A stretch of 64,000 nucleotides of DNA from Rhizobium sp. RU36D (GTDB taxonomy: Bacteria; Pseudomonadota; Alphaproteobacteria; Rhizobiales; Rhizobiaceae). The notes beneath the pieces are model-generated. The model worked only from the letters and a program-made list of their open reading frames with translations, did no database searches and was not told where the DNA came from. The position numbers were made by a program, and so were the translations under genes. Shown piece by piece: positions 35,071 to 40,264 of the stretch (within the stretch, counting starts at the first letter, position 1; the number at the start of each line of letters is the position of its first letter). The DNA lies in assembly GCF_900176345.1 (NCBI RefSeq), contig NZ_FWXU01000030.1:1-64000 (forward strand), written 5' to 3'.

Positions 35071-36375
35071 TTAGATCTTCGCTAATTTCGCCGGGCGTTC
35101 GCCGCCATAGGCCCAGTCGAGCAGTTCGATCGTGTGCAGGATCGGCACCGCTATGCCGGAGCCGATCTGCGTCATGCAGCCGATATTGCCGGTAGCGATC
35201 ACATCAGGCCGTGTCGCTTCGAGATTCTTCACCTTGCGGGCCTTGAGCCTAGCCGAAATCTCCGGCTGCATGATGTTGTAGGTGCCCGCCGATCCGCAGC
35301 AGAGATGACCTTCCGCCGGATCGCGCACGGTGAAGCCGGCATTCTTCAGCAGCAGCTTCGGCTGCATCGTGATCTTCTGGCCATGCTGCATGGAACAGGC
35401 GGAATGGTAGGTCACCGTGAGGTTCTTGCGCTCCTGCGCCGGCAGATCAAGCGTGGCGAGATATTCCGTCACGTCTTTTGCCAAGGTCGAGACACGGGCG
35501 GCCTTTTCTGTGTAGGCGGGGTCGAGCCGCAGCATATGGCCGTAATCCTTGATGGTCGTGCCGCAGCCGGAGGCGGTGATGATGATCGCATCGAGGCCGC
35601 CGGCCTCGATCTCCCGCGTCCAGACATCGACATTGCGGCGGGCGGAGGCCAGCGCCTGCTCTTCCCGGCCCATGTGATGCACCAGCGCGCCGCAGCAGCC
35701 TTCGCCCTGCGGCACCGAGACCTCGACGCCGAGCCGCGTCAGCAGGCGGATGGTGGCGGCATTGATGCCGGGATCGAGCACCGGTTGGGCACAGCCGGTC
35801 AGGATCGCGACACGCCCGCGCCGCGCGGATTGCGGTTCGTGCTTGCCCGGCGCACTGAATTTCGACGGCGCCGGCGTGGCAGCGGGTGCAAGATCCAGCA
35901 TGGCGCCGAACGGCTTCAAGGCCGGAACGCGCTTCATCAGGCCGCTCAGCGGTTTGCCAAGCCGGGCGAGCGACAGCGCCAGCCGGAACCGCTCAGGATA
36001 TGGCAGCACCATGGCCAGGATTTGCCGCGTCAGCCGGTTCATGAACGGCCGCTTGTAGGTCTTCTCGATATGGATGCGGGCGTGGTCGACCAGATGCATG
36101 TAGTCGACGCCGGAGGGGCAGGTGGTCGTGCAGGCGAGGCAGGACAGGCAACGATCGATATGGGTGACGATCTGCTTGTCCGCCGGGCGTCCATTTTCCA
36201 GCATGTCCTTGATCAGATAGATCCGGCCCCTGGGGCTATCGAGCTCGTTGCCAAGGGTGACATAGGTCGGACAGGTCGCAGTGCAGAAGCCGCAATGCAC
36301 GCATTTGCGCAGGATCTGCTCCGCCTCGGCGACGTGGGGATCGGCCAGTTGTTCCAGGGTGAAATTGGTTTGCAT
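35071..36375 (-). CDS. glcF: Glycolate oxidase iron-sulfur subunit GlcF
   Basis: Electron-transfer subunit of membrane-associated glycolate dehydrogenase, which turns glycolate into glyoxylate. The 434 residues carry two [4Fe-4S] ferredoxin motifs, C25-C28-C31-C35 and C76-C79-C82-C86, then two CCG-type domains (GCAQPVLDPG, GEGCCGALVHHMG, then HSACSMQHG and LCCGSAGTYN). It is the last gene of the glc group on the minus strand. The gene immediately upstream is a nuclease-like gene six bases away, not glcE. Confidence 0.96.
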   Translation of the reverse strand: MQTNFTLEQLADPHVAEAEQILRKCVHCGFCTATCPTYVTLGNELDSPRGRIYLIKDMLENGRPADKQIVTHIDRCLSCLACTTTCPSGVDYMHLVDHARIHIEKTYKRPFMNRLTRQILAMVLPYPERFRLALSLARLGKPLSGLMKRVPALKPFGAMLDLAPAATPAPSKFSAPGKHEPQSARRGRVAILTGCAQPVLDPGINAATIRLLTRLGVEVSVPQGEGCCGALVHHMGREEQALASARRNVDVWTREIEAGGLDAIIITASGCGTTIKDYGHMLRLDPAYTEKAARVSTLAKDVTEYLATLDLPAQERKNLTVTYHSACSMQHGQKITMQPKLLLKNAGFTVRDPAEGHLCCGSAGTYNIMQPEISARLKARKVKNLEATRPDVIATGNIGCMTQIGSGIAVPILHTIELLDWAYGGERPAKLAKI

Positions 36376-36381
36376 CCGGGT

Positions 36382-37119
36382 TCAGGCCTCTTCCTGGAAA
36401 CGAAAGGTGATGGAGTAGCTAAACAAGGACAGGCCCGGCACTGCCTTCGCTGCCGAGCGGGTGCGCCGGTCGAATTCGTGTGCCACGATAATGCCGCGCA
36501 GCCGGGCACCCGGCTCTTCGTCCATCAGGTCGCCCATGTAGCCAAGCGTCTGGCCGACAACGCGAGCGTCCGTCTTTCCAGCCTTCAACTCCACCACCAC
36601 AAGATTGCCGGCGGCATCGCGGCACAGAATATCTATGAAGCCGGACAAGACGCCGCGCTCCAAGCCATCATCCACGATGGTCAGGCCCGGCTCCAGCAGC
36701 GCAATGTTCTGTCGCAGTGCCGCTTGCATATCGCGCTCAAGCGACAGGCGTTGTTTATCGCCCGGTTCCTGTTCCGGCAGCATGGGCGCGATGCGGTGAT
36801 CCTCGATCGTCCCCGCGAAGGGGCCGTCCTGGCTCGCCTGTAGAAATCCGACATAACGCACGACGGCGTTTTTATAGGATTGCAGGTTGTTGCGGATATT
36901 GCCGTCAAAAATGAGTTTCGATGGGTTCGGTTTATCAAGCCGCTCATCGGCCGTCGAATAGGTCAGTTCCGAAATCAGAGCTTCATAGCCGCCATTGGCA
37001 ACGATCTCATCGATCGCGCCATAGCTTTGCTCTACTTTGGCAACACGATGAAGCTGCGCCGTTATGGTGTTTTCCTGATAATCGGCATTCTGAAGCCAAG
37101 CCCTGTAATCACTGCGCAT
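36382..37119 (-). CDS. NucS/DUF91-type PD-(D/E)XK nuclease embedded in the glc operon
   Basis: A 245-residue protein. The C-terminal half carries a PD-(D/E)XK core GFIDILCRDAAGNLVVVELKAG with Asp163, Glu177 and Lys179 and a following Gln in VVGQTLGYMGDL, closely matching the NucS/EndoMS catalytic pattern (VDILCRD...VVVEIK...GQ..RYMG). NucS cuts mismatched or branched DNA in archaea and actinobacteria. The N-terminal 95 residues (AWLQNADYQENTITAQL) are helical, unlike NucS, and may bind DNA or partner. It overlaps glcE by 11 bases and precedes glcF by six. The catalytic residues look intact; its task and its reason for being in this operon are unknown. Confidence 0.82.
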   Translation of the reverse strand: MRSDYRAWLQNADYQENTITAQLHRVAKVEQSYGAIDEIVANGGYEALISELTYSTADERLDKPNPSKLIFDGNIRNNLQSYKNAVVRYVGFLQASQDGPFAGTIEDHRIAPMLPEQEPGDKQRLSLERDMQAALRQNIALLEPGLTIVDDGLERGVLSGFIDILCRDAAGNLVVVELKAGKTDARVVGQTLGYMGDLMDEEPGARLRGIIVAHEFDRRTRSAAKAVPGLSLFSYSITFRFQEEA

Positions 37120-38317
37120 TGGAAATTACCATCCGGCCGGGGTTGAAGACGCCGTTCGGATCGAATTTGGCCTTCACCGCCTGCTGCAGCAGGGCGACGG
37201 CCGGTGCCAGAGGTTCGAAGGCCGGCACAGCGCGGCGTAGGCTTTCGGGGGCGCGGACCAGTGTCGCGTGGCCGCCGCCTGTTGCCTTGATGTAGCGGCG
37301 CAGCGTTACATCCTCCGCATCGGCCTCCATGCGCATCCAGACGAGGCCGCCCTGCCAGTCGTAGAAGGCGTCGATGCCCGCTTCCAGCCGGAGCGCCGCC
37401 ACCAGCTTGTGCCCCTCGCTCGGCGCGACCGAAACGCGCCAAAGCGGTCGCACCGTGCCATCGGCATAGGGTTTGACATCCCTGATCTCCCGCCAGAGGG
37501 TGGTCGTCTCGTCGGCATCGAGATGCGCGACGGGGCCTCTGTCGCGCATGGCCGCGGCCAGCTTTTCGGCACGCACGCGAACCGAGGCCTCCAGCCCTTC
37601 AAGCCGCAGCACCGTCGCCGGTCCATCCGGCAGATGGCCTTCAAGGAAGCGGCCACGCACGGATTCCGGCAGATGGGCAGCGCCCGACACCTCGACCGGC
37701 AGGGCCATGGCCGCGGCCATTGCTGCGGCAGCCTCGGCATCATCAAGACCCGAGAGGACGATGGTGGCGGCCGTCTTCGGTCGCGGCAGCACCTTGAAGG
37801 TGATTTCGGTGAGGAATGCGAGCGTGCCGTGGGACCCAGCCAGCACCTTCACCAGGTCAAGGCCGGTGACATTCTTCATCACCCGCCCGCCCGCCTTGAC
37901 GATCTCGCCACGGCCGTTGACGAAGCGCAGGCCGAGCAGATGGTCGCGCGCGGCACCTGAGGTGAAGCGGCGCGGTCCGGAGGCATTGGTCGCGAAGACG
38001 CCGCCGATGGTCGGCTCGCCCTCGGTGCCCATCACAGGGCGATGATCGATCGGCTCGAAGGCCATCATCTGGCCGGTTTCCGCCAGCGCCGCGTCGACAA
38101 CGGCGACCGGCGTGCCCGCCCAGGCGGTCATGACCATTTCCGCCGGGTTATAGGAAGTGATGCCGGAGAGGCCGGTGGAGCTCAGCGTTTCCGAGGCGTC
38201 GACCGGGTTGCCAATCTCGCCACGCGTGTTGCCACCGGAAATTTTCAGCTGTTGGCCACGGGAGGCGAACTCGCGGATGATGTCGGCGGCTTGGGATTCG
38301 GTGGCGGGGGTCAGCAT
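37109..38317 (-). CDS. glcE: Glycolate oxidase FAD-binding subunit GlcE
   Basis: A 402-residue flavoprotein subunit of glycolate dehydrogenase with the FAD_binding_4 fold: LKISGGNTRGEIGN near the start, then TIGGVFATNASGPRRFTSGAARDHLLGL and VKAGGRVMKNVTGLDLVKVLAGSHGTLAFLTE, all typical of GlcE. The last residues read FNPGRMVI. It works with GlcD and GlcF in one complex. It lies downstream of glcD, with a 397-base repeat-filled gap. Confidence 0.95.
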   Translation of the reverse strand: MLTPATESQAADIIREFASRGQQLKISGGNTRGEIGNPVDASETLSSTGLSGITSYNPAEMVMTAWAGTPVAVVDAALAETGQMMAFEPIDHRPVMGTEGEPTIGGVFATNASGPRRFTSGAARDHLLGLRFVNGRGEIVKAGGRVMKNVTGLDLVKVLAGSHGTLAFLTEITFKVLPRPKTAATIVLSGLDDAEAAAAMAAAMALPVEVSGAAHLPESVRGRFLEGHLPDGPATVLRLEGLEASVRVRAEKLAAAMRDRGPVAHLDADETTTLWREIRDVKPYADGTVRPLWRVSVAPSEGHKLVAALRLEAGIDAFYDWQGGLVWMRMEADAEDVTLRRYIKATGGGHATLVRAPESLRRAVPAFEPLAPAVALLQQAVKAKFDPNGVFNPGRMVISNAQ

Positions 38318-38411
38318 GGGGTGGTGCTCCTCGCCCGTGTTTCGGTGAGGGGCGTTGTTGAAGCATTGCTGATCTTCCTGGTGTGGACACCTGCCTCTGC
38401 GTGCACAGCGT

Positions 38412-38695
38412 GGATACCCCCCTCTGGTCTGCCGACCATCTCCCCCTCAAGGGGGGAGATCGGCTGGGCGCACCCGCTCGTTTTCTCGAAACCAGAGACA
38501 AGTGGTGGACGCGTCAAAGCATGAGACCGGACGGAGAGAGGCAACGCCTCGGCAATACGCCAAATATGAAGCGAGCGGCATCGGCTTGCCGATCTCCCTC
38601 CTTGTGGGGGGTGAGGCATGGTCGGCAAAGCCGAGCAATCGATCCAGTGAATCGATTGCAATGCCGAACGCCGGCAGACCGGAGGGGGGTATGCT
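38412..38695 (+). repeat. Composite palindromic repeat, family B copy 2 (284 bp)
   Basis: The left arm (38412-38463) is nearly identical to the left arm of the copy at 11850. On the right, CCGATCTCCCTCCTTGTGGGGGG (near 38589) and GGCAGACCGGAGGGGGGTATGC (ending 38695) are diverged versions of the right arm, separated by about 60 extra bases that include an ATCGATT palindrome. It lies between glcE and glcD and could separate their expression. The flanking 38318-38411 and 38696-38714 hold nothing else I can name. Confidence 0.72.
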
Positions 38696-38714
38696 AGGTG
38701 CCCGCAATAACTCA

Positions 38715-40154
38715 TCACGCCGCCGTCCTCCCCTCCAGCGGAAACACCTTGGACGGGTTCAGTGTCCATTTGGGGTCGAAGGCGGCGCGCACTGCCATTT
38801 GCTGGGCCAGATCAACCTCGGCATATTGATGCCGCATCAGGTCGCGTTTTTCGATGCCGACACCGTGTTCGCCGGTCAGGCAGCCGCCGGCATCGACGCA
38901 GAGCTTGAGGATATCCATGCCGGCGGCTTCGGCGCGGGCGGCGTCCTCGGGGTCGTTGATGTTGTAGAGGATCAGCGGATGCATGTTGCCGTCGCCGGCA
39001 TGGAAGACATTGGCGCAGCGCAGGCCGTAGCGGGCGATGATCTCGGCGGTCTTCTTCAGCACATAGGACAGCTGGCTAAGCGGCACCGTGCCATCCATGC
39101 AGATATAGTCGGCGATGCGGCCCGTCGCGCCGAAGGCGGATTTGCGGCCCTTCCAGATCAGCGCCGCCTCGGTGGCGGACTGGCTTTCGCGCACGGTCTT
39201 CACGCCATGGCGTCGGGCGATCTCGACGATCGAGGCCAGCATGGCCTCCATCTCCGCCTCCGATCCCTCGACCTCGACGATCAGCAGCGCCTCGACATCG
39301 AGCGGATAACCGGCATGTGCGAAGGCCTCGCAGATCTCGATGGCCGGCTTGTCCATGAATTCGATGGCGACGGGCACGATGCCGGCGCCGATGATGTCGG
39401 CCACGCAGGCGCCCGCCTCTTCCGAACTGTCAAAACCGAATAATACGGGCCGCGCACCCTCAGGCTTGGCCAGCAGGCGGACTGTTGCCTCGGTAACCAC
39501 GCCCAATTGGCCTTCCGAGCCGCATACGAGACCGAGCAGATCTAGCCCCTCAGCGTCCAGCGCCTTGCCGCCGATTTCGATGATCGTGCCGTCGACCAGC
39601 ACAAGTTTCACGCCCAGCAGGTTGTTGGTGGTGACGCCGTATTTCAGACAGTGGGCGCCGCCGGAATTCATGCCGATATTGCCGCCAATGGTACAGGCGA
39701 GCTGGGAGCTTGGATCGGGCGCATAGAAAAAGCCATCGGCACCAACAGCATCTGAAATGGACAGGTTCGTCACGCCAGCCTGCACCGTTGCGGTGCGGTT
39801 GGCATAGTCGATGTCGAGAATGCGGGTCATGGCGGAGAGGCCGAGGACCACCGCATCCTCCTGCGGAATGGCGCCGCCTGACAGAGAGGTGCCCGCCCCG
39901 CGCGGCACGACCGGAATGCCGTATTTGTGGCAATATTTGAGGACGGCGGCGACCTGCGCCGTGGTTTCCGGCAGGGCAACCGCCAGGGGCCGGCGGCGAT
40001 AGGCAATGAAGCCATCGGTCTCGAAGGGCACGAGTTCGAACGGTTCATGAACCAACCGCTCCGGCGGCAGAAGCTCTGCCAGATCCTCAACGATCTCGCG
40101 GCGACGCACGAGGATCGCCGCATCCGGCTGCATGAATTCTATCGCGTCTGCCAT
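38715..40154 (-). CDS. glcD: Glycolate oxidase FAD-linked subunit GlcD
   Basis: The catalytic flavoprotein of glycolate dehydrogenase, 479 residues with the ATG at 40154. FAD-binding motifs are VVPRGAGTSLSGGAIP near residue 75 and TIGGNIGMNSGGAHCLKYGVTTNNLLG; the C-terminal FAD-oxidase domain ends CLTGEHGVGIEKRDLM and LNPSKVFP. GGGAGGGG lies four bases before the ATG at 40154, so the longer frame is rejected. It is first in the glc group and divergent from a LysR gene. Confidence 0.96.
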   Translation of the reverse strand: MADAIEFMQPDAAILVRRREIVEDLAELLPPERLVHEPFELVPFETDGFIAYRRRPLAVALPETTAQVAAVLKYCHKYGIPVVPRGAGTSLSGGAIPQEDAVVLGLSAMTRILDIDYANRTATVQAGVTNLSISDAVGADGFFYAPDPSSQLACTIGGNIGMNSGGAHCLKYGVTTNNLLGVKLVLVDGTIIEIGGKALDAEGLDLLGLVCGSEGQLGVVTEATVRLLAKPEGARPVLFGFDSSEEAGACVADIIGAGIVPVAIEFMDKPAIEICEAFAHAGYPLDVEALLIVEVEGSEAEMEAMLASIVEIARRHGVKTVRESQSATEAALIWKGRKSAFGATGRIADYICMDGTVPLSQLSYVLKKTAEIIARYGLRCANVFHAGDGNMHPLILYNINDPEDAARAEAAGMDILKLCVDAGGCLTGEHGVGIEKRDLMRHQYAEVDLAQQMAVRAAFDPKWTLNPSKVFPLEGRTAA

Positions 40155-40264
40155 GATGCCCCTCCCGTCGTTCCGCTCTACCGGAATACACCCAGCCTGC
40201 AATCGCTTCAACTGGTATTAAATGTTTACCACTTTCCCGATGCGATGGCAAATGCTATGGACTT

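Follow-up and report, generated by a model that had tools for sequence, protein, structure and literature searches.

The DNA analysed here, a stretch of 64,000 nucleotides from Rhizobium sp. RU36D (henceforth the window), carries on its minus strand a glycolate oxidase operon in which a solo nuclease gene, named nuc in this report, lies between glcE and glcF (Table 1). GlcE and GlcF both score above their NCBIfam cut-offs (286.7 versus 284 and 471.9 versus 333 bits respectively); the product of the first gene of the operon scores under its own (538.6 versus 897 bits, and 461.7 versus 567.9 bits for TIGR00387), for which reason we refer to it as GlcD-like. A first-pass annotation had placed an open reading frame here, with an 11-base overlap with glcE and a 6-base gap before glcF, and the gene coordinates confirm all three. 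With full or near-full-length relatives at 21 loci, at 44–64% identity, and with purifying selection in the pairs that could be measured, nuc is more than a chance reading frame. Translation of glcE stops within nuc codons 2–4, an arrangement shared by the Shinella locus L006, and in these two operons the insert itself therefore terminates glcE. At the other end, the last nuc codons are purine-rich; in the window this stretch reads GGAAGAGG, stands 11 bases ahead of glcF and may be the ribosome-binding site of that gene.

Table 1. Features of the nuc locus, in window coordinates
Feature	Position	Strand	Remarks
glcD-like, first gene of the operon	38715..40211	-	TIGR00387 2.1e-138, under the model cut-off
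glcE	37109..38317	-	upstream flank of the nuc insertion; NCBIfam PRK11282 2.1e-85
glcE/nuc 11-base overlap	37109..37119	-	glcE terminates, out of frame, within nuc codons 1-4
nuc	36382..37119	-	245 aa, ATG start, coordinates include the stop; Pfam NucS_C 1.4e-13; 21 related loci
All-helical N-terminal domain, residues 1-98	36826..37119	-	model pLDDT 96; resembles tyrosine-recombinase core-binding domain (VIA-align)
Linker, residues 99-121	36757..36825	-	pLDDT <50; variable in the alignment
NucS_C PD-(D/E)XK nuclease domain, residues 128-221	36457..36738	-	Pfam; Foldseek 5gke 1.6e-8, 2vld 7.1e-8
D163 codon (PD motif)	36631..36633	-	invariant 22/22
E177, L178, K179 codons (ExK motif)	36583..36591	-	E177 and K179 invariant 22/22
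Q190 codon (Q of QxxxY)	36550..36552	-	Q190 invariant 22/22, Y194 also invariant
GGAAGAGG, possible ribosome-binding site for glcF	36387..36394	-	final nuc codons; putative role, read from sequence
glcF	35071..36375	-	downstream flank of the nuc insertion; NCBIfam PRK11274 1.6e-141

Two domains of the nuc protein

The AlphaFold2 model of the nuc protein (mean pLDDT 83) has two confident domains joined by the linker. The C-terminal one gives the sole Pfam match of the protein, to NucS_C (51.4 bits versus a cut-off of 24), and Foldseek matches its fold to EndoMS and NucS. In a phmmer search against solved proteins, EndoMS (5gke) and P. abyssi NucS (2vld) match from residue 127 or 128 onward, and D163, E177, K179 and Q190 align with the D, E, K and Q of both. 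These four residues, named in the first-pass annotation as a NucS-like PD-(D/E)XK core, are present and, together with D150, E154 and Y194, invariant across 22 aligned full-length homologues; the Pfam and fold matches bear the core out. The wider description of the protein as NucS/EndoMS-like does not hold, given its helical N-terminal half and its scores against the whole-protein NCBIfam NucS models, which lie far under cut-off (63.8 versus 216 and 31.0 versus 252 bits) and are matched from residue 121 on only. Nuc is the single NucS_C gene of the genome. Against a viral structure library the model matched general nuclease-like models only, and a PHROGs search with the protein gave nothing useful.

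Thus, nuc is like NucS/EndoMS in its C-terminal domain but lacks the N-terminal DNA-binding domain of NucS (P. abyssi residues 1–114), having the all-helical domain instead. According to PMC5290159, NucS/EndoMS occurs mostly where MutS–MutL is absent, whereas the window genome has mutS and mutL (a weak distinguishing feature); the same paper already records NucS-CT outside full NucS. Proteins annotated as 'Endonuclease NucS domain-containing protein' on proteobacterial plasmids share the C-terminal domain. Most of the matches listed cover the nuclease half only, and the annotated ones read here do not lie in a glc operon; one relative, on a Nitrosospira plasmid, has both domains of nuc and matches at 57.6% across 98% of the query. 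The comparison cautions against giving proteins of this build the name of NucS enzymes of mismatch repair.

Modelled alone, the N-terminal 99 residues are again confidently all-helical (pLDDT 96). Foldseek found nothing for this domain at E ≤ 0.001 (best E 3.4). In VIA-align, a second look at the same candidates, the best row was the core-binding region of the Brujita integrase (5vfz; Z 8.1, 78 aligned, 2.4 Å) and the second that of an integron integrase (2a3v; Z 7.6, 77 aligned, 2.7 Å), the next row falling to Z 3.2; for helical models, VIA-align warns that Z under about 13 may mean merely a common arrangement. We take the recombinase likeness from VIA-align, since Foldseek alone had no significant match and, because such scores may arise by chance in helical models, a tyrosine-recombinase core-binding-like fold is regarded as likely, on a suggestive but weak match. 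The Pfam model Phage_int_SAM_5 reached only 0.11, on one relative of the N-domain (L061). Domains of this type also occur without NucS_C, namely in two proteins. In L060, from a restriction-type cluster of a Sphingomonas plasmid, it opens an AAA+ protein (the plasmid search showed a near-full-length match here that is convincing over the N-domain only); the L061 protein has a RecB-like nuclease and an Abi gene as neighbours.

Distribution of nuc and contents of the glcE–glcF junction

Full-length nuc was found in two of 63 genomes of the genus (the window genome itself and G023), a further three having a match in the nuclease half only, as well as in three of 297 family genomes and one of 385 class genomes, the window genome being included each time. 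The 21 loci come from a scan of GTDB 220 with one genome per species. With each duplicated locus excluded or entered a single time (L057 = L015; L002 and L029 = L008; L058 and L107 = L153; L028 = L142), there were 11 distinct rhizobial copies, every one of them between glcE and glcF: those of the window, Shinella (L006), Rhizobium AC27/96 (L007), Rhizobium CG5 (L008), R. straminoryzae (L009), two Hoeflea (L011, L012), a Rhizobium MAG (L013), Aureimonas (L014), Aquibium (L015) and G101 (L153). Nuc is always the final gene before glcF, with a stop-to-start spacing of −1 to 6 bases. Six of the 11 carriers have no other passenger DNA at the junction; Hoeflea and Aquibium retain a DUF4870 gene together with nuc. 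The first-pass annotation had called the gene an insertion, and the comparison across Rhizobiaceae agrees: most operons examined lack nuc, and the gene recurs at the exact junction in 11 rhizobial genomes. We could accordingly set aside two other descriptions, nuc as a one-off oddity of the window genome (ten more rhizobial genomes share the junction) and nuc as a standard part of rhizobial glc operons (given the genus and family counts).

At the other homologue loci (12 genomes, one plasmid and one viral contig), glcD, glcE and glcF were absent from all 14 within the 5–6 kb at most that was fetched on each side. Three Rhodobacterales (L017, L018, L019) have the order rsmE–nuc–small ORF–gshA, their copies being 66–72% identical to that of the window in the nuclease half and 34–38% in the N-domain. 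Defence- or phage-type neighbours occur at L010, L025 and L059: the L010 relative adjoins a C5 DNA methyltransferase and a resolvase, and the L025 relative lies in a phage-like stretch, adjoining Nmad2. On a viral contig, a 58% relative (L156:5001–5738) is a single ORF between two co-directional tail-module genes, next to DUF6950. A tblastn search of phage records gave no nuc match.

What else occupies the junction was surveyed at two levels. Thirty loci were fetched from the 63 genus genomes, and among the 28 genomes without nuc a gene for a DUF4870 membrane protein stands at glcE–glcF in 27 and 54 bases in the other (G062). For the family, 80 loci, one per genus, were drawn from the 143 of 161 genomes with a glcF match: 34 hold DUF4870, 29 a gap of under 120 bases, seven DUF433, one DUF4870 plus DUF433, one DUF433 plus nuc, and five other content or a long gap, with the glcF start missed by the script in the remaining three, two of which hold a DUF4870-like ORF. 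DUF433/PIN-like pairs thus occur at eight of the 80 loci (L114, L115, L118, L120, L128, L135, L098 and L099, with low third-position GC). At these eight loci, which lack nuc, the gene after DUF433 is a PIN-like ORF, split in L118, with a common initial LLDEGVP-type motif as judged by eye; Pfam DUF5615, run on six of the PIN-like ORFs, was above cut-off in L135 only, under it in three and absent in two. DUF433 proteins have been predicted to act as antitoxins to PIN toxins (PMC2701414). In three of the 11 nuc carriers (L014, L015, L153), DUF433 lies directly upstream of nuc, which stands at the expected place of the PIN-like toxin. Other contents of the junction include a 227-residue nuclease-like ORF (L137:64–747) with a weak HSDR_N_2 match (0.028) and a third-position GC of 0.50 versus 0.94 in glcE, a 156-residue ORF without a Pfam match (L070:63–533) and, in L140, two small lipoprotein-like ORFs on the opposite strand.

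Descent of the gene and of its flanks

The glcE tree has 118 rows and was built quickly, without bootstrap, with internal stops entered as X (L050 has one). Placing the 11 carriers on it takes 11 changes, of which well-supported branches force at least 10; shuffled labels take 10.7 on average, so that the carriers are not clustered at all. Seven of them (L006, L007, L008, L009, L013, L014, L015) have a supported non-carrier sister, with Hoeflea and the window falling in unresolved parts of the tree. In the tree of nuc itself, by contrast, the glc rows group together (four changes versus 8.6 when shuffled, none of 500 shuffles being as low; this tree held both L015 and L057, so that its 12 glc rows represent 11 genomes), and the glc copies broadly track lineage. 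The nuc alignment nonetheless rejects the glcE plus glcF topology of the 11 carriers (AU p 0.0003, for a single fixed glc topology that is partly weak), and between the glc sisters window/L008 and L014/L153 the nuc copies differ by 38% and 44% respectively.

Base composition was compared within the same interval. Third-position GC lies more than 0.1 under that of glcE in 10 of 11 nuc copies (L009 being the one without the drop), seven of eight DUF433 genes and five of five PIN-like toxins tested, versus none of 64 DUF4870 genes. Read in this way, third-position GC separates putative residents of glcE–glcF from putative newcomers, although in nuc a low value can also reflect weak expression. 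Where it could be measured, nuc is under purifying selection: dN is 0.042, dS 0.53 and dN/dS 0.08 for L017–L018, and 0.14, 1.35 and 0.10 for L011–L012, the glcE of the latter pair giving a dN/dS of 0.14.

The closest pair with and without the gene, L008 and L142 (genome G062), is 98, 99 and 96% identical over the first 300 bases of glcF and 88% over the last 100 bases of glcE. This one pair showed no foreign flank or co-conversion stretch, the other pairs being too divergent; therefore, either no long flank came along with nuc or the gene was cleanly lost from G062. The junctions read revealed neither a mobility gene nor terminal repeats nor a duplicated target.

Readings of the inserted gene

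We consider it probable that nuc is a mobile single-gene DNA endonuclease, a promoterless cargo of the glycolate-oxidase operon that has repeatedly entered the glcE–glcF junction. Since this rare gene appears to have entered the same glc joint repeatedly in different rhizobia, it looks more like a travelling passenger than a glycolate-linked repair enzyme. A mobile cargo gene was among the options of the first-pass annotation, and it is the one favoured by the rarity of nuc, the location of all 11 rhizobial copies at one junction, the scatter of carriers on the glcE tree and the low third-position GC, and also by the DUF433/PIN-like pairs at the same junction and by the relatives on a viral contig (L156), in a phage-like stretch (L025) and on a plasmid. 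Mechanistically, the recombinase-like helical domain (residues 1–98) would probably bind DNA and the NucS-type PD-(D/E)XK domain (residues 128–221) would probably cut it. The gene would move among rhizobial genomes and enter glcE–glcF, or replace what is there, the simplest route being recombination within the glcE and glcF sequences that the operons have in common. Once in place it would be read from the glc promoter, and the operon would stay functional, the start of nuc overlapping the end of glcE and its own end possibly providing the ribosome-binding site of glcF; nuc itself would have no part in glycolate metabolism.

A rare gene that returns to one junction of a metabolic operon offers a natural experiment: it can show by what means small genes, selfish or defensive, get into operons that go on working. 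Since close relatives differ in whether this junction carries cargo (G023 and G062 are examples), entry, loss and any homing are directly testable. Small nuclease genes lodged in operons and patchy between relatives, as nuc is, are on record in PMC2701414, namely Uma2 (a solo nuclease), DUF433–PIN, and MNT–HEPN within a lysine operon. A literature search that covered few subscription-journal papers found no prior report of a nuclease between glcE and glcF, nor a printed one of a two-domain nuclease at a recurrent operon junction; NucS_C outside full NucS, operon-inserted toxin modules and solo Uma2 are already known.

As to what the cargo does, our first choice is a solo nuclease of toxin or restriction type that would act on foreign DNA, and our second is self-spread by homing; both are sub-readings of the mobile cargo and neither is mutually exclusive with it. 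That nuc is a solo defence or restriction-like nuclease against phage or plasmid DNA, with the glc position serving just for steady expression, is a credible possibility, though we would not expect it on balance. It is suggested by the defence-type neighbours of the relatives at L010 and L025, by the occurrence of the N-domain in the restriction-type cluster of L060 and beside the nuclease and Abi genes of L061, and by the similarity of the nuclease domain to PADLOC PDC-S02 (3e-14) and PDC-S11 (1.9e-11). The PADLOC matches, however, are to models without a given cut-off and take in the nuclease part only of profiles of 308–358 positions (in PDC-S02, nuc residues 160–242 match positions 221–306 of 308), and within their operons the glc copies are accompanied by neither a methyltransferase nor any other partner. 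Nuc also differs from type II toxin–antitoxin pairs, which have a stable small antitoxin partner: eight of the 11 carriers lack DUF433, the antitoxin family screened, and three have one just upstream.

A free-standing homing endonuclease would recognise and cut the empty glcE–glcF junction, and repair from a nuc-bearing operon would copy the gene there (intronless homing). This account best explains the recurrent site, yet we hold it to be doubtful. Like the seg and mob free-standing homing endonucleases of T4, which are likewise intergenic between conserved genes (PMC2988022), nuc is a solo nuclease ORF at a junction of conserved genes, present and absent among relatives and at one recurring site in scattered lineages. 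The start of glcF is highly conserved, the protein combines an endonuclease core with a predicted recombinase-like DNA-binding domain, more than half of the carriers (six of 11) lack other passenger DNA, and one relative lies within a phage tail operon (L156). Against homing, the junction is not nuclease-specific, since it also receives DUF433/PIN-like pairs as well as the L137 ORF, and a co-conversion stretch is absent from L008 versus L142. Nor do insertion site and N-domain identity track each other: copies outside glc (L010, L016, L025) are 58–62% identical to the window in this domain versus 55–68% for glc copies, and the rsmE/gshA-linked copies, at 34–38%, differ by eye among themselves too. 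These domain identities do not support an N-domain that determines where the gene inserts. The T4 enzymes moreover belong to the GIY-YIG or HNH types (PMC2988022), whereas nuc joins a PD-(D/E)XK nuclease to the recombinase-like domain predicted from its model and sits in bacterial chromosomes, its cutting and homing being putative. Only with comparable hesitation would we propose a new build of homing-type endonuclease, pairing these two domains and targeting glcE–glcF in rhizobia, rsmE–gshA in Rhodobacterales and a phage-like tail-module junction.

Old residence in the operon, by vertical descent from a glcE–DUF4870–nuc–glcF ancestor and loss in most lineages, strikes us as unlikely. The glc copies do cluster on the nuc tree and occupy a single site, and DUF4870 and nuc stand together in Hoeflea and Aquibium; the clustering therefore leaves room for some old residence, with very many losses. 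Losses would, however, be required across nearly all sampled lineages, the low third-position GC of 10 of 11 nuc copies sets them apart from the 64 DUF4870 genes at the same place, and the glc topology is rejected, glc sisters carrying strongly different nuc copies. Together, the glcE-tree scatter, the AU rejection and the low third-position GC thus favour repeated entry into the junction over old residence with mass loss.

A NucS/EndoMS repair enzyme co-expressed with glycolate oxidation to mend peroxide damage, another option of the first-pass annotation, could appeal to the intact catalytic residues and the operon coupling, but is very improbable and was rejected: the NucS N-terminal domain is missing and the whole-protein NucS models stay under cut-off, most glc operons examined lack nuc, its relatives outside rhizobia lie outside glc, and the genome, in which nuc is the only NucS_C gene, has mutS (836 bits) and mutL (582 bits) above cut-off, so that mismatch repair tied to glycolate is unlikely. 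Exceptions are known to the occurrence of NucS mostly without MutS–MutL.

The cargo reading can also be set beside the neighbouring junction of the operon, taken as a control. An interval of more than 250 bases was found at 10 of 63 survey loci for glcD–glcE versus 45 of 76 for glcE–glcF; the latter is more often filled largely because of DUF4870. Both glc junctions take cargo, glcE–glcF more often. The glcD–glcE cargo includes Uma2, DUF559 and PIN genes (L015:2489–3064, L138:1392–2006, L085:1882–2406, L127:1780–2286 and L117:1688–2092). In the window, this interval (38318–38714) is without a clear gene and contains long inverted repeats, one with 42-nt arms that are 79% complementary and one with 21-nt arms at 95%. 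Six-frame translations of this repeat type (PPQGGR, SPLEGEM) recur in the glcD–glcE or glcE–glcF gaps of L030, L032, L048 and L062, and the repeats are probably a rhizobial intergenic repeat element, presumably the one named RIME.
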